Source: Chitinophaga sp. 180180018-3 (GTDB taxonomy: Bacteria > Bacteroidota > Bacteroidia > Chitinophagales > Chitinophagaceae). From it: DNA of 64,000 nucleotides. Of the stretch, positions 37,867 to 56,085 are shown in pieces. The notes below the pieces were generated by a model. The model was not told the DNA's origin. It saw only the letters and a list, made by a program, of their open reading frames with translations, and did not search any database. The position numbers were made by a program, and so were the translations under genes. Every line of letters starts with the position of its first letter. Position 1 is the first letter of the stretch. Where the stretch lies: positions 5,022,001 through 5,086,000 of the forward strand of contig NZ_CP140772.1 of NCBI RefSeq assembly GCF_037893185.1, written 5' to 3'.

Positions 37867-38064
37867 ATGTCTGCTTTGAATTATTTAGTTGTCATGTTAG
37901 AGAATAGTCAGACGGAACAATTGCCTGTCCGCATATTCTTAACCCACCATACCCTTACTGGTATTGTTACCAACATTTACCCTTCATTTGTTGAAATCAG
38001 AACGGAAGATGGCAAACGCTGTGTGATTACACTCGATAAGATCGAAGCCATAGCCGGTATCTGA
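37867..38064 (+). CDS. Small Sm/SH3-barrel-like protein, first gene of HEAT-repeat operon
   Basis: This 65-residue protein has an N-terminal helix-like segment, then five short strands (PVRIFLTHHTLTGIVTNIYP, FVEIRTE, KRCVITLDKIEAI). The GxVxxxxPxFVEI ... ILDKIxAI pattern resembles Sm/Hfq-type or SH3 barrels, which often oligomerise or bind RNA, but there is no direct family match I can name. It is cytoplasmic. The next gene starts 34 bases later, and the four genes up to 44736 have gaps of 34, 15 and 41 bases, so it is the head of one transcript. A TATATTTA box at 37819-37826 is a weak -7 candidate. Confidence 0.6.
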   Translation: MSALNYLVVMLENSQTEQLPVRIFLTHHTLTGIVTNIYPSFVEIRTEDGKRCVITLDKIEAIAGI

Positions 38065-38098
38065 CGCCCGTCAATTATATCATTGAAAAAATCATAGC

Positions 38099-39733
38099 AT
38101 GGATCATACTACTCAGCGCCCGGACAATGCTTTGCCGGGGCTCATCCGTAAAGTTTTGGGCAGTCCGCATTCCGAACAGGTGATCAAGGCGCAGATCATC
38201 CAGATGGCTTCGCAGCACCTGCACGTGCCGGAGGTTACTACGGCCTTGCTGGAAGTGCTGCCGCTGACGAAAGACAAAGAAACCAAAGCCCGGTTGTTAC
38301 AATTCCTGTCCGGCCTCAATACGTCCCGTTTTCCGGACCCCACTGCGTTATTCAACGCGCTGCTGGAAGTATACCGGCAGGAGAAAGACAGAGACACACG
38401 TACCGCCCTGCTCTATCGCTTGCAGGATAGCATCCACCAGGATCCGCGGCTGGCGGTATTCTTCGTGGAGCTGGCAGCACAGGACACTTTGAGCGAGCAG
38501 GAGCGTATAGCCGTTCAGGATACGATCGCTTCTCTTCCTTCGATATCGGAAGAAACAGCGCTTGCTGCGTTGCTGAAAAACGTTAACGCACCTACGCTGA
38601 TGCAACTGCAGGCCATTGAGCTGGCAGAAAAATGCCCGGTATGGGGCGAAAAAATGGCGGCCGCCCTGCAACCCTACCTGGCCGTGAAAAACGACCGGAA
38701 TATACGGTTCCGCATTCTTTCCCGCCTGAGCAGTGCGCGATTGCTGGATGCCAGCTATGCGGCGGTCATCATCCCGGTGCTGCGCACGGATAACGATGCC
38801 TACACCCGTCTGGAAGCATTGCAGGCGTTGACGAAAATAAAGCCCTGGAATGAAGATATTCTGTTGCAACTGGTTTGGTCCGCCTCCCAGGATGGCGACG
38901 AAACCGTGCGCAGTAAGGCCTTGCAGTTACAGGGCGAATTGCCGGAGCTCAGCAACGAACAGATGATGGCGCTGGCAGGACTGCTGACTTCCGACCGTTC
39001 GGAAGGCGTTCGCCTTACCTTGCTACAGCAACTCAAGCCGCTGATGCGTATTCCGGAGATCAGAACACAGGTGGCTGCCGCATTTTCGGCTAACCCCGGC
39101 GTGTTCAACGATACGGAGTTCGGCATGCTGACCGACATGCTGGCGCCTTATGCCGGCAGAGACGAGCAAATCAGCCTGCAGTTGATGAACAGCGCTAAAG
39201 GTCTTCCTAACACCGGGCAGCGCAAAAAAGTATTGCAACTGTTGCTGGGCAAAGTGAATATCGAAAAAATACTCGATCCGCTGCTGCAGCTTTTCAGAAA
39301 CGAACGCAATGAAGAACTGCGGGAGGTATTGTTTAACCAGGTGAAAGCCTTGTCTGTAACGCGTCATCCGCAGCTGGCAGATATTTTCTGCGACGAGCTG
39401 ACAGAACCAGGCTCACCGTTCCGCGTTACCTGCGCAGGCATCCTCGCCAACGCTGCAGAAACGTACGCGCAAATTGTGCCGGCGCTGGAGGATGTACTGT
39501 TGTACGACAACGACCGTGAGCTGGTACGTATTTCGCTCGATGGCTACCTGCGCCCCGGCGTTACCAAACGTTTCGATGTGTTGCTGGCCGTTGTGAAGAA
39601 TGAAATGATAGATACCATTTCCCGCCAGAAGGCCATGGATGCGCTGATCAAGCTGCCGCTGGATGAACAGCAGCAGGAAGCACTTGCTACTGCCCTGTCA
39701 GGCATTAAACCCGGTACATTAAAAAACACCTGA
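38099..39733 (+). CDS. HEAT-repeat protein 1 of 3
   Basis: The 544 residues are entirely helix pairs with the HEAT pattern (for example DRDTRTALLYRL near 95-106, DAYTRLEALQALTKI near 240, DETVRSKALQLQGEL, SEGVRLTLLQQL). No signal, membrane span or catalytic motif. Near residue 58 a KETKARLLQFLSGL segment aligns with equivalent places in the two downstream proteins, so the three are paralogues. The role is unknown; HEAT arrays normally scaffold proteins or nucleic acid. It is followed 15 bases later by the 721-residue protein. Confidence 0.8.
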   Translation: MDHTTQRPDNALPGLIRKVLGSPHSEQVIKAQIIQMASQHLHVPEVTTALLEVLPLTKDKETKARLLQFLSGLNTSRFPDPTALFNALLEVYRQEKDRDTRTALLYRLQDSIHQDPRLAVFFVELAAQDTLSEQERIAVQDTIASLPSISEETALAALLKNVNAPTLMQLQAIELAEKCPVWGEKMAAALQPYLAVKNDRNIRFRILSRLSSARLLDASYAAVIIPVLRTDNDAYTRLEALQALTKIKPWNEDILLQLVWSASQDGDETVRSKALQLQGELPELSNEQMMALAGLLTSDRSEGVRLTLLQQLKPLMRIPEIRTQVAAAFSANPGVFNDTEFGMLTDMLAPYAGRDEQISLQLMNSAKGLPNTGQRKKVLQLLLGKVNIEKILDPLLQLFRNERNEELREVLFNQVKALSVTRHPQLADIFCDELTEPGSPFRVTCAGILANAAETYAQIVPALEDVLLYDNDRELVRISLDGYLRPGVTKRFDVLLAVVKNEMIDTISRQKAMDALIKLPLDEQQQEALATALSGIKPGTLKNT

Positions 39734-39748
39734 TCAATTGGATGATAT

Positions 39749-41914
39749 ATGAATATGAGCAGTATTACCGAAGATATTAAAGCCCGGCGTAATGCAGGCA
39801 GCGAACAGGCCCTGATGATGCTCGATATGGTGCCGTTGTCTGATACCGATACAAAGTACTCGTTGCTGTCGTCCGCCGCATTGTATTTAAATGACCGGGC
39901 GGTTGCTGAGAAATGGATTTCCCTGCTCAGTGAAGAAACCGATACCGCCTTACAGGCCGATATGCTGCAAAGACTGGCGGCAGGCGGCTTACAGGCGATT
40001 CCCGACAAGGGCCGCTTCATTGCCCTGCTGATGGATATCCTGCAGCAAAATGAATCGCGGGATATCGTACTTCCGCTACTTGGCAGGTTTGCGCTCCATG
40101 ATGCAGGCGCGCGCCGGAAGCTGATGGATTTTTACAAATCTCAGGAGAATGCAGATGTATCCCGGCTGATACTTTCCTGGCTGCTTATTCCGGTAGCCAT
40201 TAGTGAAGAAGATATTGAGTTTTATAGGGAGATATTGAACAAAACGGATACGGAAGATAAACTGGTGCTGGTAAACAGGCTCCTGCTGCACGATCAGCTG
40301 GATCGTCAGCAGCTGGAAGAGTTGCTGCAGCCTACGACCCCTGCTGTTATCCGGGAAATGGTGCTGCGCTATTGTGTGGATCGTTCCATTGTTCCGGAAA
40401 AAACCCTGCGCAACATCATCCTGGGTGATAACAATCCGCTGCTGAGAAAATGGAGTATTCAGCTGCTGGCGATACATGGTATCAGCGATACAGCCATCAC
40501 GGATGCTATACTGCACGCACTCCGGGAAGATCCGGATCCTGCGGTGCGACAGGCGGCCATGAATGTATTTGCCTATAGCATTGCGCTCACACCAGACAAT
40601 ATCAGTTTCCTCTGCAACTGCCTGCAAACGGAAAAGAATATTACCGTAGCGCAACAGCTGCTATACCTGCTGGCGCCGTATACGGAAAAAAACAGCGCCT
40701 TGTCGGATGCCTTGTGGAACCTGCTGGAACTGGATCTGCAAACCGATATAGCGGCCGGCATTTACGATATTCTTGGCCGGCAGGTAGCCGTTAATACGAT
40801 GATGTTCGAAAGGTTTATGGCAGCATATGAAAAAGAGCAACACGATGTTTGCAAGACAGTCATATTGAAAGCCATTACCACGGTAATGAATGTGGGCGAT
40901 GAATTAAACAGTTTGTATTTGCGTGCACTCGATGCCCCGGCTCCGGCCATCCGGGAATGGGCGCTGCGGGGAATCCTGCTGATCCCGGGCACCCGGGAAA
41001 ATACAGACGTGATAGCAGCAGCCGCGCCGGCATTGCTGCGCAGCGATCTGGCAGACCAGCTACGGTTGCAGCTGGCGAGGAAACTCAGCTTCATTCCAAA
41101 GCTGCCGGATGCCGCCATACAGGTTTTCAGCCGGCTCGCCGATCACGAAAACAACCAGGAAATCCGCAGTATCTGCAATAAAGTACAGGAAAAAAGCATT
41201 GCACAGGATGGCGGCACCCGCATCAACTGGGAGCAATGGCTGCATAAAGCCGACGTGACGCATGATTTCAGCGGTGTGTTCCCGCATATCTGGTGGTTCT
41301 ACAACGATAATCCACCGATGGCCAACAGTATCCTGTATGCTGGCCTTAATCCGGCTGCCTCTGGCAGTCTGTACCAGGCCGGCGTCAGCGACCTGGAAAT
41401 ACTGAATTTCCTGGCTGCCTATTCCGGGATAGACGATACCCTCAGCCGCTACGCACTCAATCAGCTGCTGCATACCGACCTTGGCAATGAATCTAAATTC
41501 AAATGGTACCTGCTGGCTCTGAAAAGCAACCCTTCCTGCGAAGAACTGAAAGAAGGACTGTGGCTGCTGCTGGAGAAAAGAGGACAATATATCAACATGA
41601 TACAGCTGGATGAACTACTCAGGCTTGTTTGGAAAAACGAGCTGGATGCTCAGTTCAGCAGGCGCATGTTGCGGCAGACTACCCCCGCCGGAATACTGCC
41701 CTATCTGCGTTACATCTCTGTAAATGCAGCTGCAGAACAGGTGCCTGAATTGCTGGCGGCAACCGCCAAATTACCGGGCATCCTGCAGGACCGCGATTGC
41801 AAAGAGCAGTTCATTACCGCCTGCCGCAACAGCGGACAGGATGCAGAAGCTCTGCAACGCAATGCAGCAGCGGCTCCCGGCTTTGCAGACGATGGGCCGG
41901 GGTTTGCAGATTAA
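39749..41914 (+). CDS. HEAT-repeat protein 2 of 3
   Basis: The 721-residue helical protein has a HEAT-like N-terminal half (DPAVRQAAMNVFAYSI near 255, PAIREWALRGILLIPG near 395) and a distinct C-terminal region with HDFSGVFPHIWWFYNDNPPM and SLYQAGVSDLEILNFLAAYS, rich in aromatic residues. The last residues repeat PGFAD twice (PGFADDGPGFAD). No signal peptide. The N-terminal part aligns with the flanking HEAT genes. The third gene follows after 41 bases. I cannot assign a function. Confidence 0.8.
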   Translation: MNMSSITEDIKARRNAGSEQALMMLDMVPLSDTDTKYSLLSSAALYLNDRAVAEKWISLLSEETDTALQADMLQRLAAGGLQAIPDKGRFIALLMDILQQNESRDIVLPLLGRFALHDAGARRKLMDFYKSQENADVSRLILSWLLIPVAISEEDIEFYREILNKTDTEDKLVLVNRLLLHDQLDRQQLEELLQPTTPAVIREMVLRYCVDRSIVPEKTLRNIILGDNNPLLRKWSIQLLAIHGISDTAITDAILHALREDPDPAVRQAAMNVFAYSIALTPDNISFLCNCLQTEKNITVAQQLLYLLAPYTEKNSALSDALWNLLELDLQTDIAAGIYDILGRQVAVNTMMFERFMAAYEKEQHDVCKTVILKAITTVMNVGDELNSLYLRALDAPAPAIREWALRGILLIPGTRENTDVIAAAAPALLRSDLADQLRLQLARKLSFIPKLPDAAIQVFSRLADHENNQEIRSICNKVQEKSIAQDGGTRINWEQWLHKADVTHDFSGVFPHIWWFYNDNPPMANSILYAGLNPAASGSLYQAGVSDLEILNFLAAYSGIDDTLSRYALNQLLHTDLGNESKFKWYLLALKSNPSCEELKEGLWLLLEKRGQYINMIQLDELLRLVWKNELDAQFSRRMLRQTTPAGILPYLRYISVNAAAEQVPELLAATAKLPGILQDRDCKEQFITACRNSGQDAEALQRNAAAAPGFADDGPGFAD

Positions 41915-41955
41915 TTGGCAGGTATCATATTTAATCATCTTTAGTCAACAAGAAT

Positions 41956-44736
41956 ATGGCGGAAGAAATTGCTTTATTCGATATACTCTTATCTGCAGAA
42001 CGCAGTACAGAAGAACGGTTAGCAGCACTTGTACAGCTACGTCCTTTCCTGGAAACCCAGGAAGGCGCCGACAAACTTGCAGCTGCCATCAATACAGAAG
42101 AAAGTACCCAGGTGAAGGGTGCTATGCTGGAGCAGCTCTGCAACATCGACATCTCCCGGATCAATAACCATCAGCAATATATCAGCGCTCTTTCCCTGAT
42201 AGCCTGCCTGGAACCGGAGCGGGAACTGCGTTACCTGGCCGTAACCCGGCTGGCATCGCTCGCGCCACACATGAGCGAGGTACAGGAAATACTGATAGAA
42301 ACGCTGGTACATGATATCGACAGTTACATACAGATCGCCAGTATACAGGGGCTGCAGCAATGTGTCAATAAGACCACGGAAACGATAGAAAAGCTCAGTA
42401 ACTATCTTCCATTTGCCCCGGCAGCCTGCAAAGGTCCGTTGCTGACACTGGTAGCACAGCTTCCGCAACCACATGCCACTGCGCTGTTGCTACATTTCCT
42501 CGATCCGCTGGAGCCAGTGCCCTTGCGGCTGGAGGCGTTACGGATACTGTCTGACATGCCATCCCTGCCCACCATCGCCGGCACTACGCTCACCCGGCTG
42601 CTTCCTGCGGAGGTGTCGCTTCGCGTCAGGAGCAGTATCATTGCGCTACTGGCTAATCAGCGCCAGGTGGATCCGGAGCTGTTTAACGGCATCTTTACTG
42701 CGCTGCAGCAAATGCCCGACCAACCGGAACTGCTGGCCCTGGTGGCCGACCGGCTCGTGGCCCATCCTGAGCTGCAGCAGCAATTTATTCAGCTGTTCTC
42801 ACAAACAACATCCGCCGGCCTTAGAATACGGCTGCTGGTACAGCTTCAGTACAGCGATGTTCCGGAAATCATTGTCAGCGGCTTACAGGACGCTAATCCA
42901 TATGTACGGGAAGCCACGCTTCCTTTTCTCACCAACAAATTTGCTCAGTTCCAGGATCAGCTGGAACCCGCACTGGCAAAGGCTATTCAAACAGAACCAC
43001 TCACTGCATTGCGGGGAGCACTGATACAGGTATTCCTGCAAACCGGCCGGAAATCCGCCACCACAGAAGATATTATTGTAGCGTTGGGCACTGCGGAAAC
43101 AGACCATCCGCTGAAAGTACAGCTGGCACAGGCAGCCTGCCAGGTAACGGTAACAGCACAAAACAGGCAACCACTGCTTCGTTTGTTCTGCGGCATACTG
43201 GAAGGAAAATGGTACCCGGCTGCGCTGAAAGAAATGGTAACAGCCCGGCTGCAGACATTCGCCTATACTGATGATCCTGATCTTAAAAAAAGTATGGGAC
43301 TGCTGCTGGACCAGGCAAAAGATATTCATGAACTCAATCGCATCTACGGCATACTGAAAACACTGGAAACTGATTTCAGTCAGCTTGCCCCTTCTTTATT
43401 CCGTGTCCTCTACCGCCATATCGGCTGGTATCCGCAGCAACCACTCGATCAGTGGGTGCAGCTGCTCGGCCAGCTTGCTGAACAGCACGCTGATATCAGG
43501 GCGGAGCTGCCCTACCTCGTAGCTGCTACCGGCGCCAACTGGCTGCTGAAGGGCGCCGACAAAGCCGATCAGACCGGCGCATTTTTGTCGACCTTCAAAA
43601 ACGCCATGCTGAAAAACGACGGCATGCGCGGTTATATGGAAATGGAACAGCTACTCGTGGATGCATGGAATAACAGAACGATCAAAAAGAATGAGCTCAT
43701 CGAGCTGTATACCATGCTGCTGCGCAGCCCTAAGTCGTCGGGCCTGTTGCAACAAGTACTCAATATCATGCAACAGGGCAAACTGGTCACCCCGGAACTG
43801 GTAACGCTGAGCCTCGATTACATCCTGGTATCCACAGACAAAGACAGTTTATACCTCGTAAGAAAGTACCTGGAGCAGGCCGGTTTCAACGACCTGGAAT
43901 ACCGCCAGCGATTGATCAACATCTTCACACAACAGCATTATGCGCAGTACATGCAGCATAATTTGCCGGAAATAAATTCGAAGCGGCGCATCACTAATCT
44001 GAACGACTGGGAATACAGCGGCTGGCTATGTCCGTACAACCAATGGCCTGTGGCCAATCTCATTTTCGCGATAGAACCAGGCGAGCTTGCCACACAGGTA
44101 TTCAGTCAGCTGCCGGCAGCCGGCACCGATGCTACCGCTACTCTGCCTTACCTGGTGCTGGAACATCTGTTCAGAAATTATAACAGCGCCTGGGCAAAGA
44201 GCATTTTCAAAGAAACTACTTCTTTCGAAACATTCCTGACGAACATATACAATGGCTACCAGCAGCTGACAGCCGCCAATCCGCTGGGCGACAGAATGCT
44301 GTACACCTTCTGGAAGAAATGGAGTGATTATGTAAGGCTACTCAACGGACAACCGGTGCCTGCCGCCCTAAGCGATGCAGCCGCACATATATACGGAGGC
44401 GTATGTAACGTGCTGAAAAAAATGGAGCCGGAGTTCAATGGGCGGCAGTTTCCACAAATACTCAATGGCATGAACAAGGATATTGTGCAGCAACACTGGC
44501 CCTGGAGTAATGAATTATGGGAGACTTTTGAATACAAATATTTTCCTAAAAAAGATCCCGACCAGGATGCTGCTGCACAGCTCTTTCAGCAGGCTGCTAA
44601 AGCCTTGCAGGCCGGCGACGGACCGGAAGGCCTCCGTTTGCTGAAAGACCTGGTAGCAAGGTATCCGCATACAAGGCAGGTGAAAGAGCAGCTGGAGGTG
44701 ATTAATAATGCGATAGCGAAGCTGGAAGGAAATTAA
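41956..44736 (+). CDS. HEAT-repeat protein 3 of 3, with TPR-like C-terminus
   Basis: The 926-residue protein is the largest of the three. HEAT-like pairs run through about residues 1-450 (PERELRYLAVTRLASLAP, DSYIQIASIQGLQQC, NPYVREATLPFLTNK), then a helical domain with DWEYSGWLCPYNQWPVANLI near 675, and a C-terminal TPR-like hairpin (AAKALQAGDGPEGLRLLKDL, near 880-900). No signal, membrane span or enzyme motif. Its stop codon lies inside inverted repeat B, so its last Gly-Asn is encoded by the repeat. It converges on the HTCS gene. Confidence 0.8.
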   Translation: MAEEIALFDILLSAERSTEERLAALVQLRPFLETQEGADKLAAAINTEESTQVKGAMLEQLCNIDISRINNHQQYISALSLIACLEPERELRYLAVTRLASLAPHMSEVQEILIETLVHDIDSYIQIASIQGLQQCVNKTTETIEKLSNYLPFAPAACKGPLLTLVAQLPQPHATALLLHFLDPLEPVPLRLEALRILSDMPSLPTIAGTTLTRLLPAEVSLRVRSSIIALLANQRQVDPELFNGIFTALQQMPDQPELLALVADRLVAHPELQQQFIQLFSQTTSAGLRIRLLVQLQYSDVPEIIVSGLQDANPYVREATLPFLTNKFAQFQDQLEPALAKAIQTEPLTALRGALIQVFLQTGRKSATTEDIIVALGTAETDHPLKVQLAQAACQVTVTAQNRQPLLRLFCGILEGKWYPAALKEMVTARLQTFAYTDDPDLKKSMGLLLDQAKDIHELNRIYGILKTLETDFSQLAPSLFRVLYRHIGWYPQQPLDQWVQLLGQLAEQHADIRAELPYLVAATGANWLLKGADKADQTGAFLSTFKNAMLKNDGMRGYMEMEQLLVDAWNNRTIKKNELIELYTMLLRSPKSSGLLQQVLNIMQQGKLVTPELVTLSLDYILVSTDKDSLYLVRKYLEQAGFNDLEYRQRLINIFTQQHYAQYMQHNLPEINSKRRITNLNDWEYSGWLCPYNQWPVANLIFAIEPGELATQVFSQLPAAGTDATATLPYLVLEHLFRNYNSAWAKSIFKETTSFETFLTNIYNGYQQLTAANPLGDRMLYTFWKKWSDYVRLLNGQPVPAALSDAAAHIYGGVCNVLKKMEPEFNGRQFPQILNGMNKDIVQQHWPWSNELWETFEYKYFPKKDPDQDAAAQLFQQAAKALQAGDGPEGLRLLKDLVARYPHTRQVKEQLEVINNAIAKLEGN

Positions 44737-44853
44737 GAATAGGGAATGTGGAATTAAGAAACAGAGCGAAGATCCTGGCGATTGAATTGAATTGTCAATC
44801 GCCAGGATCTTCGCTCTGTTTCTTAATTCCACATTCCCTATTCTTAATTTCCT
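44727..44853. repeat. Inverted repeat B, 59-bp perfect stem, 3'-end repeat family
   Basis: The stem 44727-44785 pairs perfectly with 44795-44853 around a 9-base loop. From outside in it contains ATTAAGAATAGGGAATGTGG, the shared arm AATTAAGAAACAGAGCGAAG (44752-44771), the variable hexamer ATCCTG (44772-44777) and GCGATTGA (44778-44785). It contains the stop codon of the HEAT gene and encodes the last 18 residues of the HTCS. It is the longest perfect member of the family and a likely two-way terminator. Confidence 0.9.
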
Positions 44854-47800
44854 GCGGCGTTTGCCCAAACTGCTTCTTAAACTCTTTACTAAAATACTTC
44901 CTGTCGTTATACCCAACTGAATATGCTACCTCATACACCGCCATTTCCTTTTCCTTCAGCAGCTGTGCTGCCTTTTTCATCCGGAGGGATTTGATAAAGT
45001 CGTTCACCGACATATCCGTTACCGCTTTCAGCTTCTTATACAACACCGGTGGGCTCATGGCCAGTTTCACCGACAACATATTCACGCCAAACTCAGGATC
45101 ATTCATATGTTCTTCTACAAAACCGATGGCCCGTTGCAGAAATGCCTGATCCATCTTATTCGGCAATGTATCATGAGCGGTATGGATATCATCAACAGAC
45201 GATACAGCTTCTTCTTTGCCTTCCGATGCCAGGCGCCGGCCCGCCACGTTCCGGATATTTTCTCTCAATGCGAGGAGGTTTCTTACATTCAGTTCCAGCG
45301 CACGCGGACTAAATGGTTTGGCCAGATAATGATCTGCGCCGGTTTCCAGTCCGTGTAACTGATCGGCCTGCCCGTTACGGGCAGTGAGCATGATTACCGG
45401 AATATGACTGGTCCGTTCATCTGTTTTCAACTCATGGCATAACATAAATCCATCCATACCCGGCATCATCACATCCGTGATTACCAGATCCGGAATCTGC
45501 TCTGTAGCGGTTTTCCAGGCTTCCTGCCCATCGGCGCAAAGGATTACCTGGTAGAGTGGTTCAAATGTTTCCCTGAGCAGCCGCCCCAGATCGGGGTTAT
45601 CTTCTGCCAGCAGAATGGTATTCAGCCGGGGAGCGGCGGTGGTTTCCGTTGCCGCGATTACAGGCGCACTATTCCGCTTCGGAACCTTAACAGGTTCGGG
45701 CAATGGAACGAGTGCGTCGCCCATGTAACTCTTCCTGGGGATAGTAACGGTAAAGCACGTACGACCTTCCCGGTTTCCTGAAGCGGGGCGGCTTTCTACG
45801 GTGATGGTTCCTTTATGCAACTCTACTATGCTTCTCGATAGGGCCAGCCCGATTCCGTAGCCGGTATTCTGTTGGCCATGGTCATCTCCCTGGAAAAAAT
45901 TATCAAACAACTTATCTATATATTCCGCGGCAATCCCGCGGCCGTTGTCGGTAACGCTGATCCGTACTTCGTCGTAACGCAGCTCTGCGCTTACTATAAT
46001 CGTACCTCCATCCGGTGTAAATTTGAAAGCGTTGGAAAGCAGGTTAAAGCATACTTTCTCCATCTGCAAGCTATCGAACCAGAGCGGGATGATATCACGG
46101 TGATGGTTAAACGAAATAGTGATATTGCGTTCTGTTGCCAGTTCCCGGAAATGATTCACGATGGCTTCGAGAAATGCCACTACATCGTGAGAAGCCGGCT
46201 GCAACCGCAGATGCCCGGTTTCCGCCTTACGGAAATCCATCAGCTCACTTACGAGGCGCAAAAGCTTGTCTGCATTATCTTTTACCTGGTGCAACTGCTG
46301 CCAGAAGAAACCGCCTGCGGCCCCGGAGCTCATGATCCTGTCTACCGGCGCAGTGATCAGCGTCAGATGAGTACGGATCTCATGAGAGATATTGGTAAAG
46401 AAATTGAGTTTTTCCTGGTGCAGTTCTTCCTCCTTTTTCAGCATTCCCCGGAGATAAAAGAAACGGAAAATCAGCCATAGCAACGCTGTAATTACCGCAC
46501 CGTATAGAAGAAACGACCACCATCTGAGCCAAAGCGGGGGCAGTACGGTAATCTTCAGCACTGCAGGCCGGCTCCATATGCCATCATTACCTGCTCCCTT
46601 CACCATAAACGTATATTCGCCCGCCGGCAGGCTGGTGTAAGTGGCAGCTGTATTGCTTACCTCGTTCCAGGATCCATCGAAGCCCACCAGCTTGTAGGCA
46701 TACCGGTTCTTACCCGGGCGGATGTAGTTCAGCAGCGCAAATTCCAGGGTGAATACATCCTGGTTATGATGGAAAACCACTTCAGGGGTCAGACTGATAT
46801 CTTCCTTCAGCAAACCATCTTTGCCATTGATCTTTACCGGCTGATTAAAAAGGTTCAGACCTGTAATCACCATGTTGGCATCGTAATTATTTGTTCCCAT
46901 TTTATCGGGATAAAATCCGGTAAGACCGTTATCCCCTCCAAAGAAGAACTCTCCCCTGCTGTCTTCCAGGAAAGAATTATAATTGAACTCATTGCCTGCC
47001 AGCCCGTCGCTCTGCGTATAGGTCCGGAACATATTGGTATCAGGATTGAAAACAGCCAGTCCGTTTTCCGTACTGATCCACAGGTTATGGCTGTTATCTT
47101 CGAGTATCCCCATGACGTTACTATGCGGCAGGCCGTCTTTCTCCGTATAGATCCTTCCTTTGCCTGTATTGGGGTCGTACAGGAAAAGACCATTATAATA
47201 CAAACCAATCCATATCCTGCCCCGGGCATCCTCCCGGATACAATTGATACCGTTTTTCTGTATCAGTTTGCAACGCCCGTCGGCATACAGGTATAAACCT
47301 TCTGCGGTACCGATCCAGATATTCTTTTTACGGTCTTCCAGGAAACAGGTGGTATGCCTGTTTTGTAATTCGGGAATACGCAGCGGCAGTTGTTCCAGGT
47401 TCCTGTTCCTGCGCCGGTACACAATTACGCCATTCTGCCAGCCGGACCAGAAGCGCCCCTGGCTGTCTTCCATCAATGCGCCTACCTCGGTGTTAAAAAG
47501 CTCCTCAGCAGTTCCCATGCCTGCGAAGTGTTTGAACCTTCCGGTGGCAGGGTCGAGCAGGTTGATGCCGCCACTATGCGTGCCTACCCATATATTTCCG
47601 TCCTTATCTTTCAGTACTGTTTTTACGAGATTGGATCCGATACTCGACGGATCATTTTCCTGGTGTTTATAGGCTGTGAAATTACCAGTAGCCCGGGAGA
47701 AGTAGTTCAGTCCGCCGCCTTCCGTGCCGATCCACAGGTTGCCTGCTCCATCTTCCGCCATACCGCTTACCACGTTGTTACTAATACTGCCATGCTGCTC

Positions 47801-48883
47801 ATTATTCTGCCATATGGAGAAAGCGGTCACAGACGAGTGTACTACATTTACGCCACCGAAGTAAGTGCCGATCCAGATAGAACCGTTGTTGTCCTGGAAA
47901 ATACTATGAAGGGAGTTCTGGCTGAGGCTTTTCCGGTTCACAGGGTCATGCTGAAAGGAGATACATCTGCCCGACAACGGATCCATGATACTCAGCCCTT
48001 CCTGGGTACAGATCCATAATCTGCCCAGCCGGTCTGAAAATATCTTCCTGATATTATTATTAATAATGCCGGTAGTATTACCCCGTTGTTGTTCATAACG
48101 GACAAAACTATGCGATGCAGGGTCATACCTGTTAACGCCACTGCATTGCGTGCCCACCCAAAGGCGGCGGTATTTATCTTCCGCTACCGTGGTAATCCCG
48201 TTGTCGCTCAGGCTGGCGGTATTATTGTCGTCGTGCAGGAACACCTCTTTGCAATAGCCGCCGGCATGCTTCTTCAGCCGGATAAGGCCACAGGTAGTAC
48301 CAATCCAGATAATGCCTTCATGGTCAGCGAACATACAGCGTACCAGTCCGTCGCCTATGTTAACCGGTGTAAACCGGTTATGCTGCTTATCCTTTAACCG
48401 GTACACTCCCTTCGCTGTGGCCGCCCAAACTGTTCCGTCGTTGTCCATCAGCAAAGCAGTAACCCCTGCGGTTACAGGCGTTTTGATAAAACAGTCCCGT
48501 ACCGGATCATAGCGATCCAGTCCCGCTTCGGTGCCTACCCAAACGCTGCCGGCAGTATCGCTCACCAGCGAGCTTACATAGCTGCTGGAAATACTGCTGC
48601 TGTCTGCATCATCATGTTCATAGATCCTGAAACTACGGCCATCGTAGCGATTAAGGCCGTGTCGGGTGCCAAACCACATAAAGCCGCGGCTGTCTTGTAC
48701 AATGGCAAATACGCTTTTATGCGAAAGCCCGTTCTCTACTTTAAGATGATTAAAAACAATGTTCTGCGCGCTGACATGTGTTAAATCGATACAGCAAAAC
48801 AGGATTATCAACAGAACAATCTTCCCCCGATAATACCATTTCCCCTTTCTGACATCGCGCTCCCGAAACGCAGTCATACCCAT
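44795..48883 (-). CDS. Hybrid two-component system regulator (HTCS)
   Basis: The 1362-residue protein has a signal peptide, 14 propeller blades (for example GFMWFGTRHGLNRYDG, GNLWIGTEGGGLNYF), a Y_Y_Y domain (about 705-780), a membrane segment (786-811), HisKA with phospho-acceptor His834, HATPase_c, a receiver with Asp1137 (VITDVMMPGMDG) and a C-terminal AraC HTH (about 1250-1345). Fourteen blades fit two seven-bladed propellers. Such regulators bind an oligosaccharide in the periplasm and switch on the adjacent susC/susD. The H-box reads HEIRTHLTL, with His839 in place of the usual Pro. The last 18 residues from EIKN come from inverted repeat B. It is divergent from susC (246-base gap). Confidence 0.95.
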   Translation of the reverse strand: MGMTAFRERDVRKGKWYYRGKIVLLIILFCCIDLTHVSAQNIVFNHLKVENGLSHKSVFAIVQDSRGFMWFGTRHGLNRYDGRSFRIYEHDDADSSSISSSYVSSLVSDTAGSVWVGTEAGLDRYDPVRDCFIKTPVTAGVTALLMDNDGTVWAATAKGVYRLKDKQHNRFTPVNIGDGLVRCMFADHEGIIWIGTTCGLIRLKKHAGGYCKEVFLHDDNNTASLSDNGITTVAEDKYRRLWVGTQCSGVNRYDPASHSFVRYEQQRGNTTGIINNNIRKIFSDRLGRLWICTQEGLSIMDPLSGRCISFQHDPVNRKSLSQNSLHSIFQDNNGSIWIGTYFGGVNVVHSSVTAFSIWQNNEQHGSISNNVVSGMAEDGAGNLWIGTEGGGLNYFSRATGNFTAYKHQENDPSSIGSNLVKTVLKDKDGNIWVGTHSGGINLLDPATGRFKHFAGMGTAEELFNTEVGALMEDSQGRFWSGWQNGVIVYRRRNRNLEQLPLRIPELQNRHTTCFLEDRKKNIWIGTAEGLYLYADGRCKLIQKNGINCIREDARGRIWIGLYYNGLFLYDPNTGKGRIYTEKDGLPHSNVMGILEDNSHNLWISTENGLAVFNPDTNMFRTYTQSDGLAGNEFNYNSFLEDSRGEFFFGGDNGLTGFYPDKMGTNNYDANMVITGLNLFNQPVKINGKDGLLKEDISLTPEVVFHHNQDVFTLEFALLNYIRPGKNRYAYKLVGFDGSWNEVSNTAATYTSLPAGEYTFMVKGAGNDGIWSRPAVLKITVLPPLWLRWWSFLLYGAVITALLWLIFRFFYLRGMLKKEEELHQEKLNFFTNISHEIRTHLTLITAPVDRIMSSGAAGGFFWQQLHQVKDNADKLLRLVSELMDFRKAETGHLRLQPASHDVVAFLEAIVNHFRELATERNITISFNHHRDIIPLWFDSLQMEKVCFNLLSNAFKFTPDGGTIIVSAELRYDEVRISVTDNGRGIAAEYIDKLFDNFFQGDDHGQQNTGYGIGLALSRSIVELHKGTITVESRPASGNREGRTCFTVTIPRKSYMGDALVPLPEPVKVPKRNSAPVIAATETTAAPRLNTILLAEDNPDLGRLLRETFEPLYQVILCADGQEAWKTATEQIPDLVITDVMMPGMDGFMLCHELKTDERTSHIPVIMLTARNGQADQLHGLETGADHYLAKPFSPRALELNVRNLLALRENIRNVAGRRLASEGKEEAVSSVDDIHTAHDTLPNKMDQAFLQRAIGFVEEHMNDPEFGVNMLSVKLAMSPPVLYKKLKAVTDMSVNDFIKSLRMKKAAQLLKEKEMAVYEVAYSVGYNDRKYFSKEFKKQFGQTPQEIKNRECGIKKQSEDPGD

Positions 48884-49129
48884 ATTTGCTCACTGATTAT
48901 AAGCGGTCAATAAAAATTACAGGCGGATTAAACGCTATATAAGTGGTAAAATACAAAAAATATTCATTGAAAATCAATCGGTTGACAATCCATTTAAAAT
49001 ATTCCCCCCATTTATTTAAGATTTTGGCCCCTATCCATGATAAATATAGTTGATTTTGAGCTTATCAATCAAAACAAATCGCATAATAATTTCCGTAATG
49101 GAACAACTACGCCTTCACTTAAAACAACG

Positions 49130-52100
49130 ATGCCAATGCTAATTGACAGATTTATCAAAAAAAATCTGGCAGGACTTTTATTGATCTTCCTGCCTGTAAT
49201 TGCCGCCGCTCAGAACAAAACGATCACTGGAACAGTGAAAGACAATACAGGGGCTGCCTTACCCGGGGTAACCATTACCATTAAAGGTACCAAAACAGGT
49301 ACTACCACCGATCCGGAAGGAAAATTCAGTCTTAGCGCCAAACCCGGCGCCACGCTTATACTAAGCTTTGTGGGTTATGAGCAGATGGAAGCTACGCTCG
49401 ACAATCAGGCCAGTTATACCTTTTCATTGAAGCCGGCTTCCAAGAACATTAATGAGGTAGTGGTAACGGCGTTAGGTATAGCCCGGCAGGCAAAAAGCCT
49501 GGTATATGCTACGCAAACCATTAAAACGGCTGAACTAAATGAAGTTCGTGATGCCAATAACGTACTGAACTCCCTTCAGGGCAAGGTGGCCAACGCCATC
49601 GTTACACAGGGTTCCGGCGGCCCTGGTAGCGGCGCCAGAATCGTATTGAGGGGTAACCGCTCCCTGCAGGGTACCAACACTGCCCTGATAGTGGTAGACG
49701 GGGTACCTATTGCCAACCCCACCTACAATGTTACCGGCAGTACCTTCGGAGGCATACAGGGCCCTGATGGCGCCTCTAACGTAAACCCGGACGACATAGA
49801 GAGCATGACCGTATTACGTGGCGCCTCTGCCGCCGCACTGTACGGCAGCCAGGCCGGCAATGGCGTGCTGGTGATCACTACAAAGAAAGGAACCAGGGAT
49901 GGCTTTAAAGTAGACCTGAACTCAGGCGTTACCTTTGAAAGCGCCTTTGCCCTGCCTAAGGTACAGAACCAATATGGCCAGGGCCTGGGGGGTACCATAA
50001 ACGCTACGGTAGGCGACAGCTGGGGCGCTAAAATGACCGGCCAGTCGTTCACCAACTACCTCGGCCAGCAGGATACCTATTCTGCCCAGCCCAATAATAT
50101 CCATAACTTCTTCAGGAATGCCGTTTCCCTTAATAATTATGTAGGAGTATCGGCAGGAAATGAAAAAATGCAGTCTTATTTCTCCTATACCAATAATAAT
50201 GTGGGTGGTATCGTGCCGGAAAACAATATGATGCGGCATACCGTAGACCTGAGGGTGAGCAACGAAATCAGCCCCAGGTTCTCTACTGATGCCAAGGTCA
50301 CCTACATTAACCAGCGCATCAACAACGTTCCCCGCAATGGTGAGGAAAACTCTCCGGTAATCGACGTCTACCAGATCCCCCGTAATGTTAGTCTGGCTAA
50401 CGCTAAAAACTATCAGCAAATGGGCTCCCAGGGTATCCCCGTGGCTACCGCCTGGCCCGCAACGCTGTCATCTATCTACCAGAACCCATACTGGATGATT
50501 TATAATACCTCCATCAACTACAAGAGAGACCGGGTGATGGGCTTTATATCTGCGAAATATAAGCTGACCGACTGGCTCAATATTACCGGCCGGGCTAACC
50601 TCGACCGCATGAAGGATGAACTGGAGCAATCGTATATGGAAGGAACAGTACTGCGCGCCGGACTGAGCACAGGAGGTGATTATCTGCTGAGTAACATGAC
50701 CACCACCCAACAGTGGTACGATCTGATGTTTGAAGGTAAGAACCACTTCGGCAAAAACTTCGACCTGAATTATTATGCCGGTGGTATCTTCTACGACACC
50801 CGTTACAGTATTAATTCACTGCAGGCAAACGGATTGCGTGTGCCCAACCGCTTCAGCACTGCTTTCGCCAAAGCACCTAATCCAACTGCCTCTGCAGGCG
50901 GAACACAAACACAGTCGCTTTTCGCGCAGGCCACCCTGGGATATAAAAATGCCGTGTTCCTCGATGGAAGTATCCGCAACGACTGGGATTCCCGTCTGCC
51001 CTCTCCTTATTCCTATGCCTATTATTCAGCCGGTACTTCCGTGATGATTTCCGAACTGGTACATATGCCCAAGGCCATCTCCTTCCTGAAAGCCAGTCTG
51101 AGCTATGCGCAGGTAGGTAATGGCGGCCAGGAACAGATCCGCAACGCTACGTTCAACTTCACACAAAGTGCCGGAAACGGCCAGATCAGCCGCAATACGA
51201 TTTATCCGATTGCCAACCTCAAGCCGGAAATTGTAAGCAACGTAGAAGCGAGCATTGATATGCGCATGCTCGACCAGCGCATCGGACTGACTGCCACCTA
51301 CTATAAAAGCAATTCCAAAAATCAGTTGCTGTCGCTCAGTCTGCCTTCCGCTACCGGTTACCAGACACAGTACATCAATGCAGGTAATATCGAGAATAAA
51401 GGCTGGGAGTTCCTGCTGACCGGCGCCCCGGTAAGATCCGCTGCCTTCAGCTGGGATGTTGCTTACAACGTATCTTTCAATAAAAACAAAGTAGTTGAGT
51501 TGTCCGATAACATCAAAACTTTTTCTATTAATACAGATGCCCGTGTGGCTACCGTAGTGGTGAAAACAGGTAGCAGCTATGGTGATTTATACGGTCTGAA
51601 ATGGGCTACCAACGATGCCGGACAGCACCTGGTTACTGCCGCAGGTAAACCCATCATCACCAGTACCACCGCTTACATTGGTAACTACAATCCTAAAGCC
51701 AACATGGGTCTTACCAATACCTTCAACTACAAAAACTTTTCCCTGCGCGTGCTGATCGATGGTCGTGTAGGCGGTACCGTAGTTTCAGGAACCGAAATGA
51801 ACCTGGCCTTCAGTGGTATTCCGGAAGTGACCTCGAAATACCGCGAAGGTGGCTGGAACCTGGGAGGCGTGGATAATAACAAGCAGCAGGTAACCAATAC
51901 CATCAGTGCGCAGGACTTCTGGCAAACCGCTTCCGGCAAACGTTACGGAGCAGCAGAATTCTTTGCTTATGATGCCACCAGTTTCCGCGTAAGAGAAGTA
52001 TCCTTCGGGTACAGCATTCCGTTGCCTAAGAACATCTTTATCAAAGGGCTGAAATTGTCTGCAGTAGCGCGTAACCTTGCGTGGATCTACAGGGGCAGCT

Positions 52101-52246
52101 CGCTGCTGGATATACCGGGTGTGGGTAAACGTAAAATGTGGTTTGATCCAGAGCTGAGCCTGGCCAACAGCAACTACCAGGGTGTTGAATACGGTAACCT
52201 TCCTTCTACCCGCAGCTGGGGCTTTAACCTGAAGGCAAGTTTCTAA
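49130..52246 (+). CDS. SusC/RagA family TonB-linked outer-membrane transporter
   Basis: This 1038-residue protein (from the ATG at 49130) has a signal peptide cleaved near IAAA (residue 27), a carboxypeptidase-regulatory-like domain (ITGTVKDNTGAALPGVTITI), the SusC signature NSLQGKVANAIV, a TonB plug (RIVLRGNRSLQ) and a barrel ending in LKASF. The frame is open from 49037, but that part does not look like signal. It is next to the HTCS and should be its target. Only about a third of residues look shared with the first SusC, so ligands likely differ. Confidence 0.94.
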   Translation: MPMLIDRFIKKNLAGLLLIFLPVIAAAQNKTITGTVKDNTGAALPGVTITIKGTKTGTTTDPEGKFSLSAKPGATLILSFVGYEQMEATLDNQASYTFSLKPASKNINEVVVTALGIARQAKSLVYATQTIKTAELNEVRDANNVLNSLQGKVANAIVTQGSGGPGSGARIVLRGNRSLQGTNTALIVVDGVPIANPTYNVTGSTFGGIQGPDGASNVNPDDIESMTVLRGASAAALYGSQAGNGVLVITTKKGTRDGFKVDLNSGVTFESAFALPKVQNQYGQGLGGTINATVGDSWGAKMTGQSFTNYLGQQDTYSAQPNNIHNFFRNAVSLNNYVGVSAGNEKMQSYFSYTNNNVGGIVPENNMMRHTVDLRVSNEISPRFSTDAKVTYINQRINNVPRNGEENSPVIDVYQIPRNVSLANAKNYQQMGSQGIPVATAWPATLSSIYQNPYWMIYNTSINYKRDRVMGFISAKYKLTDWLNITGRANLDRMKDELEQSYMEGTVLRAGLSTGGDYLLSNMTTTQQWYDLMFEGKNHFGKNFDLNYYAGGIFYDTRYSINSLQANGLRVPNRFSTAFAKAPNPTASAGGTQTQSLFAQATLGYKNAVFLDGSIRNDWDSRLPSPYSYAYYSAGTSVMISELVHMPKAISFLKASLSYAQVGNGGQEQIRNATFNFTQSAGNGQISRNTIYPIANLKPEIVSNVEASIDMRMLDQRIGLTATYYKSNSKNQLLSLSLPSATGYQTQYINAGNIENKGWEFLLTGAPVRSAAFSWDVAYNVSFNKNKVVELSDNIKTFSINTDARVATVVVKTGSSYGDLYGLKWATNDAGQHLVTAAGKPIITSTTAYIGNYNPKANMGLTNTFNYKNFSLRVLIDGRVGGTVVSGTEMNLAFSGIPEVTSKYREGGWNLGGVDNNKQQVTNTISAQDFWQTASGKRYGAAEFFAYDATSFRVREVSFGYSIPLPKNIFIKGLKLSAVARNLAWIYRGSSLLDIPGVGKRKMWFDPELSLANSNYQGVEYGNLPSTRSWGFNLKASF

Positions 52247-52265
52247 AAACTAAAACTAACGAAAA

Positions 52266-53822
52266 ATGAAAAGAAAGTCCATATATAGCATCAGCCTTTT
52301 CCTGCTAACGCTTACCGCCTGTACGAAGAAGTATGAGAAGATAAATACCAATGCCAATGCCATCGTAAACCCGGGCGCCGGCGAGCTTCCCTTTCTGTTT
52401 ACCAGGGCGGAAGATCAGGCCATGTTCAGCACCAGCTACCAGGTAGCGCAAAATCTGAATGCCGACCAGTACGCGCAGTATTTTGCCTGTGAATCCACGT
52501 CGTTCCCATCTGACCGGTATGTGATGCGGTCCGACTGGTTCAATTCTGCCTGGCTACGTTTATACACCGGCGTGGTGCCGCAGCTGCAGACTATTTTTGC
52601 GCAAACAGATCCTAACTCTTCCCAGTACGCACTGGCCAATATTGTGTGGGTGCTGGCTTTTCACCGGATCACGGATTACTGGGGGCCTATCCCTTACTTT
52701 AAAGTAGGGCAGCCTGGTACCTCCGTGCCTTATGATGGGCAGGATAAAATTTATGATGATTTTTTCAAGAGACTGACCACCGCCGTGAATGTGCTGAAAA
52801 CAAAAACCGGCGAAACACCTTTCTCTTCCTACGATATTATCTTCGGGGGTAAAGTAGACAAATGGATCAAATTCGCGAACACACTCCGCCTGCGGCTGGC
52901 ACTGCGTATTTCCAAAGTAGACCCGGTAAGGGCCAAAACGGAAGCAGAAGCCGCCTATGCAGCGGGCGTGATGGCGGCCAGTCCGGATGATGATGCACTG
53001 CTTCAGAAAAGCCTGAACGGAGGCGATATCAACGGTCTTGCTCAGATGAGCGACTGGAACGAGTTCCGCATGAGTGCAGCGATGGAATCGGTACTGAAAG
53101 GCTACAAAGACCCCCGCATGCCCATCTACTTCCTGCCTGCGGTAAACACAGGTACCTACGAAGGATTGCGCAATGGCCTCACGGCTACGCAGCTTACCCT
53201 GCCGGCCAACAGCGTAAAAGCCAATTCGCATGTAGGCGCCCGCTGGAGCTCCCCTGCAGCAGGCGGCATTACCGATTTCCAGATCACTCCCCAGAACGTC
53301 ATGTGTTCGGCAGAAGCCTGGTTTCTGCGTGCAGAAGGAGCATTGCTGGGCTGGAATATGGGCGGTACACCTAAAAGCCTGTATGAGTCCGGTATCACCC
53401 AGTCGCTCAAACAATGGGGGATCACTGATAATACCACTATCACGGCTTACATCAACGGCATTACACCGGCTATTGCACCGGGCGATTATCTCAATTCGCC
53501 GGCGCTGGTAAGCTTCCCTGTATTATTTGATCCGGTGAATCCGGCCGTGCAACAGGCACAAATCTCTATGCAGAAATGGCTGGCACTCTTCCCGGATGGC
53601 TGCGAAGCCTGGGCGGATTACCGCAGAAGCAAGAGCTTCAGTCTCTACCCGATCGCCAATTCCGATAACCCGGACGTAACGGACCCATCCAAGCAATGGA
53701 TACGCCGGCTTAGCTTCCTCCAGCAGGAATTCGACAACAATTCAGCTGCCATGGGGCCCGCTGTAGATCTGCTGAAAGGCCCGGATAAGATAACAACGCC
53801 GCTGTGGTGGGATAAGAACTGA
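52266..53822 (+). CDS. SusD/RagB family outer-membrane lipoprotein (SusD-like_2 type)
   Basis: The 518-residue lipoprotein has the signal FLLTLTAC (lipid Cys19) and the opening CTKKYEKINTNANAIV of the SusD-like_2 branch. The body is helical with the conserved KWIKFANTLRLRLALRI. It should cap the SusC barrel. It follows susC by 19 bases, so they are cotranscribed. Its stop codon lies 2 bases before inverted repeat C, and the same-strand kinase begins beyond the repeat. Confidence 0.92.
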   Translation: MKRKSIYSISLFLLTLTACTKKYEKINTNANAIVNPGAGELPFLFTRAEDQAMFSTSYQVAQNLNADQYAQYFACESTSFPSDRYVMRSDWFNSAWLRLYTGVVPQLQTIFAQTDPNSSQYALANIVWVLAFHRITDYWGPIPYFKVGQPGTSVPYDGQDKIYDDFFKRLTTAVNVLKTKTGETPFSSYDIIFGGKVDKWIKFANTLRLRLALRISKVDPVRAKTEAEAAYAAGVMAASPDDDALLQKSLNGGDINGLAQMSDWNEFRMSAAMESVLKGYKDPRMPIYFLPAVNTGTYEGLRNGLTATQLTLPANSVKANSHVGARWSSPAAGGITDFQITPQNVMCSAEAWFLRAEGALLGWNMGGTPKSLYESGITQSLKQWGITDNTTITAYINGITPAIAPGDYLNSPALVSFPVLFDPVNPAVQQAQISMQKWLALFPDGCEAWADYRRSKSFSLYPIANSDNPDVTDPSKQWIRRLSFLQQEFDNNSAAMGPAVDLLKGPDKITTPLWWDKN

Positions 53823-53824
53823 TG

Positions 53825-53938
53825 AATTAAGAATCAGGAATGTGGAATTAAGAAACAGCGCGAAGAAATTAGCGGTTGATGATCAAATCGCTAATTTCTT
53901 CGCGCTGTTTCTTAATTCCACATTCCTGATTCTTAATT
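53825..53938. repeat. Inverted repeat C, 50-bp perfect stem, 3'-end repeat family
   Basis: The stem 53825-53874 pairs perfectly with 53889-53938. It has the shared arm in the variant AATTAAGAAACAGCGCGAAG (53846-53865), the variable hexamer AAATTA (53866-53871) and GCGGTTGA (53872-53879, with one G/T wobble). Unlike the other members it lies between two genes on the same strand, after susD and before the kinase. It also gives an apparent coding frame from 53842, which I consider spurious. Confidence 0.88.
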
Positions 53939-53973
53939 TATTCCGTAATTTCATTTCCGTGCTAAATGAAACG

Positions 53974-56085
53974 ATGACCCGTATGAGCCTATTCTGCCGA
54001 CCCAACACTTACTATTTACAACCATTATTGTTTGTTTCATTTTTTTATTCGTGTACAACTGCTCCGGACGATAATCTGCCGGAACACAAGCGGTACTTTG
54101 ATGCCATTTTCCTGAAAAAAGATACCATCGAACATATCAATGTAGATTCTGCCGTCAACTTCATGGATAGTGCTTACCGGGCTTTCAGGAACCCGGGACC
54201 GGCAGATATGTTCAGAAGATACGACTATCTGCGCTGGTATTACCTGATACCGAAACATGACCTGCAGCTGGCTATGCAGTATGCAGACAGTACCCTTTCT
54301 CTGTTCAGAAACGAAAAATTCCGGCAGCATCATATCCGGGAATATGGCAGTGCCCTGCTGAGTAAAGGCGATGTTTACAGGGATCAGGGGAAATACAGTG
54401 AAGCTTATCTTTTCTATTATCAGGGCTGGCAGGCCATCCAGACTACCGGCGATAGCTGCTCTTATAAAGACTATAGCCGCAGATTGGGGATGATATATTA
54501 CAAGCAGGAGAAATACGTGAAAGCTATCCCGTATTTTGAAAAGAGCTTCGGCGAGGCACAGCACTGCGATCCGGATGTTTTTTTAAATTACTATTTCCAG
54601 CAGGAAATGCTCGATAATATAGGCCTATGTTACGAGTACGAAGGTAATTATGCCTCAGCGCAGCTTTACTACGACAGCGCACTTCGTTTCATCAATGCTA
54701 CAGGAAGTAAATTCAATACCAGCCAGTTCCAGATCTCAAAGAATGAAGCAGCCAAAGCTGTAGTACACAGTAACCTGGGCAACATACTGGCCAAACAGCA
54801 CCTTTTCGACGCTGCTGAAGCCGCCTATAAGGAAGGCATCCGAATCAACCTGAAGGAACAATATGAAATCCGGGATGCACAGAAAACAATGGCCAGGATG
54901 GCACAGCTTTATCTTTCCCAAAACCGGCTCCGGGATGCGGGAAAAATACTCGGTGAAATGAGAAGCTCTATGGACAAAGTGCCAGGACCTGCAGCAGATG
55001 AGCAGGCGCGCAAAGTGCGCTCCGACGAAATTGAATTGCTCTGGCGAAGAATGGAGTGGCAATACCTCGACCAAAGCGGGCAAACAGCAGCGGCATTCAA
55101 CATGTTGAAGTCCTTCAACCAATTGAACGATTCCCTGATCAATCTCAACAACCCGGTACTCCCCGATGCCAGCGACGAGATCGAACATATTTCACGGGAG
55201 TTTCATTTGAGCGGCGTGGAGAAAGACAACGCCCTGAAAACTTCTTACCTGATCATACTGAGTATCCTCTTTATTGGCTTTGTGCTGGTGACATGGATGA
55301 TCTGGCATAACTGGCGGAAATCCCGCAAACATCTTGCAGCCCTGAAGCTGCTTAACCAGCAGGTATTGATGGAGCATGAAAACGTCCGCCAGGGTCTGAA
55401 GGCGCTGGAACAAAGTCAGAAAGACAATTCCAGGATACTGAAAATAGTGGCGCACGACCTGCGCAGCCCTATCGGCGCTATTCAGTCGCTCGCAGAGCTG
55501 ATGCTGGCATCCCGCCAGCTGGCCGACCGGGATGCAGAGTTGATAGACCTCATACGGTCGTCCAGTGCCGATGCACTCATCCTGATCTCCGATCTCATGA
55601 CCCTGGATCGTGGTATTGCTGATGTGGAAAAAGAAACCGTGGAATTGCATACCGTACTCAAAAACTGTGTGGATATACAACAGGTGCTGGCCAATGAAAA
55701 AAAGCAGGAGATCACACTGGAAACAGTTCCCGTAGCGGTTACCGGCTACCGCGAAAAGCTGTGGCGGGTATTCAGCAACGTTATCGGCAATGCTATTAAA
55801 TTCAGCCCGCAGGGATCAGTCATACTAGTGAGGATGAATTGTGAGGAAGCTGTGGTAACAGTGAGTGTGGAAGATCATGGCATCGGCATTCCGGAAAATC
55901 TGCAGTCGAAAGTATACACCCCATCGTCTGCAACCAAGCGTGCCGGTACTGAAGGGGAAGAATCTTTCGGGTTGGGGTTGAGTATTTCCAGACAGATTGT
56001 GGAAGCCCACGGCGGAAAAATATGGTTTGAGTCGACAGAAGGGAAAGGCACTACATTTTTCATCACCTTAAACATAGCAGCCTGA
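53974..56085 (+). CDS. TPR-containing sensor histidine kinase, paralogue of the kinase at 28.0 kb
   Basis: The 703-residue protein has a lipoprotein-like signal (LLFVSFFYSC), an extracytoplasmic TPR-like region (about 30-400), a membrane segment (423-444), His494 in VAHDLRSPIGA and a HATPase_c with EDHGIGIP and ESFGLGL. It lacks a receiver. From the membrane segment on (281 residues) it aligns with the kinase at 28043-30148 with no gaps, and both follow a susD. The start at 53974 was chosen because the frame from 53842 runs through inverted repeat C; 53983 is an alternative. It converges on the PAS hybrid kinase with 8 bases between stops. Confidence 0.9.
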   Translation: MTRMSLFCRPNTYYLQPLLFVSFFYSCTTAPDDNLPEHKRYFDAIFLKKDTIEHINVDSAVNFMDSAYRAFRNPGPADMFRRYDYLRWYYLIPKHDLQLAMQYADSTLSLFRNEKFRQHHIREYGSALLSKGDVYRDQGKYSEAYLFYYQGWQAIQTTGDSCSYKDYSRRLGMIYYKQEKYVKAIPYFEKSFGEAQHCDPDVFLNYYFQQEMLDNIGLCYEYEGNYASAQLYYDSALRFINATGSKFNTSQFQISKNEAAKAVVHSNLGNILAKQHLFDAAEAAYKEGIRINLKEQYEIRDAQKTMARMAQLYLSQNRLRDAGKILGEMRSSMDKVPGPAADEQARKVRSDEIELLWRRMEWQYLDQSGQTAAAFNMLKSFNQLNDSLINLNNPVLPDASDEIEHISREFHLSGVEKDNALKTSYLIILSILFIGFVLVTWMIWHNWRKSRKHLAALKLLNQQVLMEHENVRQGLKALEQSQKDNSRILKIVAHDLRSPIGAIQSLAELMLASRQLADRDAELIDLIRSSSADALILISDLMTLDRGIADVEKETVELHTVLKNCVDIQQVLANEKKQEITLETVPVAVTGYREKLWRVFSNVIGNAIKFSPQGSVILVRMNCEEAVVTVSVEDHGIGIPENLQSKVYTPSSATKRAGTEGEESFGLGLSISRQIVEAHGGKIWFESTEGKGTTFFITLNIAA

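Follow-up and report, generated by a model that had tools for sequence, protein, structure and literature searches.

Hfq is the Sm-type protein with which the smallest product of the locus described here can best be compared. The YKH motif and Q8 of Hfq are residues of its proximal RNA site. Canonical Hfq was found over its curated cut-off in none of 79 genomes of the genus Chitinophaga and in none of 296 genomes of the phylum, and the Bacteroidota are reportedly without classical sRNA chaperones (PMC11697453). A second point of comparison is provided by the MoxR–vWA systems, in which the MIDAS sites of the vWA proteins are described, in part of one account, as binding extended or unstructured peptides (PMC7159879). 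A third is the domain DUF4132, of which the relevant section of a Deinococcus paper says only that it is possibly involved in molybdopterin biosynthesis (PMC8533742). Four genes of some Chitinophaga soil bacteria, here called S, A, B and C, make up a unit that is unlike any described system found, and none that matches it was met in the literature searched, which omits most subscription papers.

The window, that is, the whole stretch of 64,000 nucleotides that was analysed, comes from the genome of Chitinophaga sp. 180180018-3, which is 8.13 Mb long and assembled as a single contig. The four genes all lie on the + strand, encode proteins of 65, 544, 721 and 926 aa, and are separated by gaps of 34 (S–A), 15 (A–B) and 41 (B–C) bases; the coordinates, lengths, gaps and shared strand given in a preliminary description of this DNA were reproduced. 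The features of the operon are as follows:

37867..38064, + strand: S, a predicted Sm-fold, Hfq-like protein of 65 aa, with a helix at residues 3–17 and five strands (AF2 model, Foldseek)
38099..39733, + strand: A, a HEAT protein of 544 aa (HEAT_2, 34.9 bits)
38741..38944, + strand: segment of A, approximately residues 215–282, absent from the 472-aa A of five genomes
39749..41914, + strand: B, a predicted all-helical superhelix of 721 aa (HEAT_2, 37.6 bits; AF2 model)
41876..41911, + strand: predicted disordered tail of B, PGFADDGPGFAD, which ends in GPGFAD (21 of 21 aligned rows; pLDDT)
41956..44736, + strand: C, a helical repeat protein of 926 aa (HEAT_2, 19.2 bits, below the cut-off; profile kinship with B)
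44554..44733, + strand: C-terminal extension of C, approximately residues 867–926, TPR-like by eye, absent from the C of 858–861 aa of five genomes

Both neighbouring genes, a thioredoxin-like gene upstream and a hybrid two-component gene (44795–48883) downstream, are on the opposite strand, so S-A-B-C stands alone. Beyond the hybrid two-component gene, a TonB-dependent receptor, a SusD-like lipoprotein and a TPR histidine kinase follow in a row (49037–56085 of the window); this neighbour of the operon is an ordinary locus for nutrient uptake. A regular-expression search for a −33/−7-like promoter pair gave a match in front of S at 7 of the 22 loci, the window locus not being among them. The four proteins are all acidic (mean pI 5.4 for S, 5.4 for A, 5.1 for B and 5.5 for C), and no membrane span or signal-like stretch was detected in them, the largest 19-residue Kyte–Doolittle mean being 0.89–1.39. 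None of them reached a curated cut-off except that of the generic HEAT_2 (A and B), family-model searches found no enzyme, nuclease or toxin family, and the best match in a PHROGs search had an E-value of 0.028; the earlier statement that the proteins have no membrane span or signal peptide is supported. Our reading, put forward tentatively and rated somewhat short of an even chance, is that S-A-B-C forms a cytoplasmic ring-plus-solenoid scaffold in which the tail of B would dock a partner, and that this scaffold works with a protein of the DUF5724/DUF4132 type. It draws on the conserved gene order, the retention of both halves where the unit has been split, the predicted Sm fold of S, the kinship of A, B and C, the want of any enzyme family in the searches, purifying selection, the invariant GPGFAD end of B, the position and distribution of a DUF5724 gene and a DUF4132 protein in a second operon of the genome.

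The AF2 model of S (mean pLDDT 89.2) has an N-terminal helix and five strands arranged in the Sm fold, elements that are predicted along the whole length of the protein and that it shares with Hfq. When this model was searched against the PDB with Foldseek, all of the matches at E ≤ 0.001 were Hfq (49/49); VIA-align gave the top rank to a designed small β-barrel, so the fold alone proves neither descent from Hfq nor a ring. From its model S is predicted to be an Sm-type barrel, and the small barrel protein of the preliminary description can be sharpened to an Hfq-like one. In sequence, the six best matches of the S profile among PDB sequences were Hfq (E 0.025–0.59), the Hfq models TIGR02383 and PF17209 were weakly matched by 10 and 5 of the 22 members of S, respectively, and E and G residues in the first half of S align with E and G residues of Hfq. 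Unlike Hfq, S resides in an operon with HEAT proteins, stays under every Hfq cut-off (13.0 and 14.8 bits were the best among the matches listed to PF17209 and TIGR02383, for which the curated cut-offs are 27 and 61.7 bits) and lacks the proximal-site motif: in none of the 22 rows do the columns aligned with YKH and Q8, in a mapping made partly by eye, contain these residues. A comparison of S with E. coli Hfq using hhalign gave 14%. Because the sequences support descent from Hfq only weakly and the proximal RNA-binding motif is absent, ‘Hfq-like’ as used for S is mainly a claim on its predicted fold. The likeness was already recognisable, since automatic annotation has given the name Hfq or host factor-I to at least 13 of the 57 homologues of S in the database. 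The best sequence matches of S were to MM0924_fam (NF041655; 18/22 members, best E 6e-9), DUF6897 (12/22 members, best E 2e-4) and DUF2642 (6/22). These are small uncharacterised families, and S lies under their curated cut-offs wherever scores were given in bits; for MM0924_fam the cut-off is 45 bits, S of the window scored 19.0 and the best of six members scored in bits reached 33.8. The MM0924_fam model gave five weak matches over 247 genomes of the phylum, none of them over the cut-off, and MM0924 was not met in the literature searched.

It could be argued that S is a working divergent Hfq, a ring that chaperones RNA or binds mRNA and has the HEAT proteins as effectors, so that the unit would regulate expression post-transcriptionally in bacteria that lack canonical Hfq. 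The predicted Sm fold, the Hfq matches among PDB sequences, the weak matches to TIGR02383 and PF17209 and the want of canonical Hfq in the genus and phylum genomes would all suit such a role, but the residues found in place of YKH and Q8, the acidity of all four proteins, the carriage of S by only 22 of 79 species, unlike a global chaperone, and its faster change than A–C in several pairs make it unlikely. In the scaffold that we favour, S would most likely be a small Sm-type ring as in Hfq, serving as an assembly hub and no longer possessing the residues with which Hfq binds RNA at its proximal site. A gene with a predicted Hfq fold in one operon with three putative scaffolds offers a test case for RNA binding versus reuse of a ring for protein assembly.

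That the three large proteins are paralogous helical repeats had been proposed from the sequence alone, and the HEAT_2 and hhalign results agree with it. The HEAT_2 cut-off (PF13646, 27.7 bits) is passed by A and B and failed by C, at the scores listed above. Profile comparison with hhalign gave 94.9% for A–B (E 4e-8), 90% for B–C (E 1.6e-6) and 70% for A–C (E 4e-5), the last in a register that is shifted relative to those of A–B and B–C. For comparison, eight other HEAT-hit stretches of this genome were each represented by their longest open frame, and these gave at most 7%; they are single sequences, which makes the control a weaker one, and some of them are cut by the stretch edge. By their profiles, A, B and C are related helical-repeat solenoids. 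The duplication with growth that had been suggested for them is plausible, but A–C aligns in another register than A–B and B–C. The AF2 model of B (mean pLDDT 84.0) is helical over residues 3–706 and describes a continuous superhelix. The likeness of A and B to HEAT/ARM alpha-solenoids (PF13646 and relatives) is generic, and so are the structure matches of the B model, which include importins, Integrator subunits and designed ARM repeats with TM-scores of 0.16–0.34 of the query among the 50 matches listed, none of which indicates one family. Searched against PDB sequences, B matched nothing up to E 0.1, and A and C gave weak matches to synthetic repeat proteins. The most conserved of the three is A, with a mean column identity of 77% (20 rows) versus 73% in B and 71% in C. 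Five genomes combine a 472-aa A with a C of 858–861 aa (four of the five are displayed in the alignments, whilst the lengths cover all five), and the A segment and the C extension, which they lack, are therefore dispensable. In the proposed scaffold A, B and C would be the arms, with S closest to A and B closest to C.

The very C-terminus of B is formed by GPGFAD, which is invariant in 21 of 21 aligned rows, where it follows a variable linker; a second PGFAD is found in the tail in six of the 21. In the AF2 model the last 14 residues (708–721) have a pLDDT under 50. Apparently disordered, and variable except in its last six residues, the tail seems to resemble a docking peptide, and in the scaffold reading its GPGFAD end would be the point at which a partner docks. 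The peptide binding by vWA MIDAS sites described in part of the account cited above (PMC7159879) suggests, by analogy, a possible mode of binding for a tail that ends in an aspartate. The six invariant residues could be used as bait in a search for this partner. Neither the invariant tail nor the DUF5724/DUF4132 neighbour described below had been mentioned in the preliminary description. As a candidate shared C-terminal tag, GFAD-stop had four matches in the window's own genome versus two for the reversed pattern, which gives no evidence of a tag family.

C was found in 22 of the 79 Chitinophaga genomes, with an identity of 51–68% outside its own genome, and S in the same 22, with one more genome at E 0.09. 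Across a family sample of 195 genomes, four of them of the genus Chitinophaga, C was seen only in its own genome (1/195). Searches of 298 genomes of the order returned, besides the own genome, one weak match in a member of the genus with the A profile (E 9e-5, residues 196–311) and four weak matches with the S profile (E 0.001–0.009), and a pattern scan of genome contigs with C, in which near relatives were possibly left out, returned 36 matches of which none was confirmed. In a large protein collection, at least 53 relatives of C, with identities down to 46%, were found among the 7994 candidates that were scored from a larger set; the 668 candidates for S yielded 57 relatives, every one 63–72 aa in length. 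The named relatives of both are mostly Chitinophaga; two relatives come from metagenome bins labelled Azospira oryzae and Flavobacterium psychrophilum, which may be mislabelled. S-A-B-C is restricted to Chitinophaga in the samples searched, where nothing convincing was found outside that genus, and the earlier idea of a general Bacteroidota system was not borne out; the conservation of the four-gene order in other genomes was, the order S-A-B-C being kept in 20 of the 22 carriers, among them G230, whose C is broken near a contig end. Across the carriers the gaps range from 20 to 40 bases between S and A, from −8 to 15 between A and B, and from 17 to 50 between B and C. In the remaining two genomes (G258 and G225), which are sisters in a tree of RpoB, S-A and B-C have become separated and both halves are retained, approximately 0.72 Mb apart in G258 and on separate contigs in G225, whose A has a frameshift. 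The genes that flank the operon fall into at least six different sets among the carriers, and over the 21 kb of the window that entered the comparison only one flanking ORF had a relative in any other locus.

In both split genomes, B-C lies directly downstream, and on the same strand, of a gene for a DUF5724-DUF4132-DUF7737 protein of 1666 aa, at a distance of 6 bases in G258 and 19 bases in G225. This gene has a small ORF without a Pfam match 21 bases upstream, and S-A lies 2 and 15 bases behind another small ORF without a Pfam match. Since the two genomes are sisters, the adjacency of B-C and DUF5724 is probably one event. A small conserved ORF precedes DUF5724 in all of the 22 loci examined (35 genomes have DUF5724). 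As called, it encodes 135–169 aa (L063:2854-3261, L064:2750-3235 and 20 further loci); a Pfam scan of three copies gave no match, and the copies compared have the C-terminal end TFIRLTFLAGSFW or SYW. DUF5724 is present in 35 of the 79 genomes, comprising 21 of the 22 operon carriers and 14 of the 57 non-carriers (Fisher p 5e-9). The exception among the carriers is G216, which is also the carrier whose operon conflicts with RpoB. Away from the two split genomes, the other 19 carriers with DUF5724 have the gene at a distance from the operon (approximately 1.0 Mb in the window's genome), and two copies are defective, that of G239 lacking the first 962 residues and that of G230 being broken near a contig end. 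In G230 both C (L074:1-1362) and DUF5724 (L236:1-2484) are frameshifted into pieces near contig ends, so that an assembly error is possible; the breakage could be either this or decay. When the association of the operon with DUF5724 was assessed on the tree it was not significant (p 0.375 over 12 independent pairs, of which 4.4 went the same way, 1.0 the other way and 6.6 showed no difference), and the link is therefore a strong lead that falls short of being shown. It is limited further by the 14 genomes that have DUF5724 without the operon, by the reverse case of G216 and by the restriction of the adjacency to one lineage. Compared with the DUF5724 protein by hhalign, B and C gave 0.1% and 0.3% and thus showed no kinship, and DUF5724 and DUF4132 domains were absent from the Pfam matches of A, B and C up to E 1.

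It is also conceivable, though we consider it doubtful, that S-A-B-C is a self-contained accessory module that forms a structural or regulatory complex by itself and is unrelated to DUF5724, the adjacency and the shared distribution being products of genome size and descent. The tree-aware test, the single lineage in which DUF5724 adjoins the operon and the varied flanking genes are all in keeping with such a module, but B-C has landed immediately downstream of the one gene that is common to 21 of the 22 carriers, with the strand shared as well (as judged by eye from two gene orders). In the reading that we favour, the scaffold would work together with the DUF5724-DUF4132-DUF7737 protein and the small protein encoded upstream of it, and would probably be an optional adaptor of the stress or quality-control kind. 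S, A, B and C are also candidate partners for the DUF5724/DUF4132/DUF7737 proteins, which are uncharacterised, and the predicted fold of S and the DUF5724 neighbour provide two handles on function.

A second DUF4132 protein in the window's genome closes an operon-like row with AAA_5 and VWA_CoxE:

L238:5205-16934 (within G000:C1:2533000-2552900): genes for a 444-aa protein without a Pfam match, DUF5691 with HEAT, AAA_5, DUF5682, VWA_CoxE and DUF4132

This AAA_5 (MoxR-like)/VWA_CoxE/DUF5682/DUF5691/DUF4132 operon resembles S-A-B-C in that it also encodes large HEAT-bearing proteins, and it shares DUF4132 with the protein that precedes B-C in two species. Unlike MoxR–vWA systems, S-A-B-C is without an ATPase, a vWA protein or DUF4132. 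A more far-reaching version of the scaffold, which strikes us as improbable, would have, in a phylum said to be without Hfq, a ring of the Hfq fold reused as the hub of three solenoids; GPGFAD would couple this machine either to a vWA co-chaperone or to a DUF5724/DUF4132 protein. In the vWA variant, the metal site of the co-chaperone would bind the terminal aspartate of the B tail.

The history of the operon was studied on an RpoB tree that covers 76 of the 79 genus genomes. Its presence requires six changes on this tree, versus 19.3 on average and never fewer than 14 when it was shuffled 1000 times, and a single gain would need 13 losses. The tree of A+B+C for the 22 carriers shares 14 of 19 splits with the RpoB tree, and yet the two are mutually rejected (AU p 7e-6 and 4e-6), the placement of G216 being the conflict with the best support. 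From the clumped presence, the shared splits and the mutual rejection, descent with losses is the main pattern and at least one transfer is possible. A, B and C are under purifying selection, with dN/dS values of 0.03–0.17 in nine of nine pairs, which are not all independent. A conflict or anti-phage defence system, for which the patchy occurrence in 22 of 79 species, the six or more sets of flanking genes and the conflict of the operon and RpoB trees over G216 might be cited, is very unlikely in the face of the clumped presence and agreeing splits, the purifying selection and the family-model searches, which found no nuclease or toxin family; the PADLOC 2023 component models gave only four weak matches to the operon proteins (best E 0.01). 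The dN/dS of S was 0.05–0.38 in seven of nine pairs and 1.15 in a pair with hardly any synonymous change, and one pair gave no value. In some close pairs, though not all, the synonymous divergence of S, which has only 65 codons, is far lower than that of A–C: 0.023 versus 0.20–0.30 in the pair L054/L055, and 0.82 versus 2.1–2.5 in the pair L067/L068.
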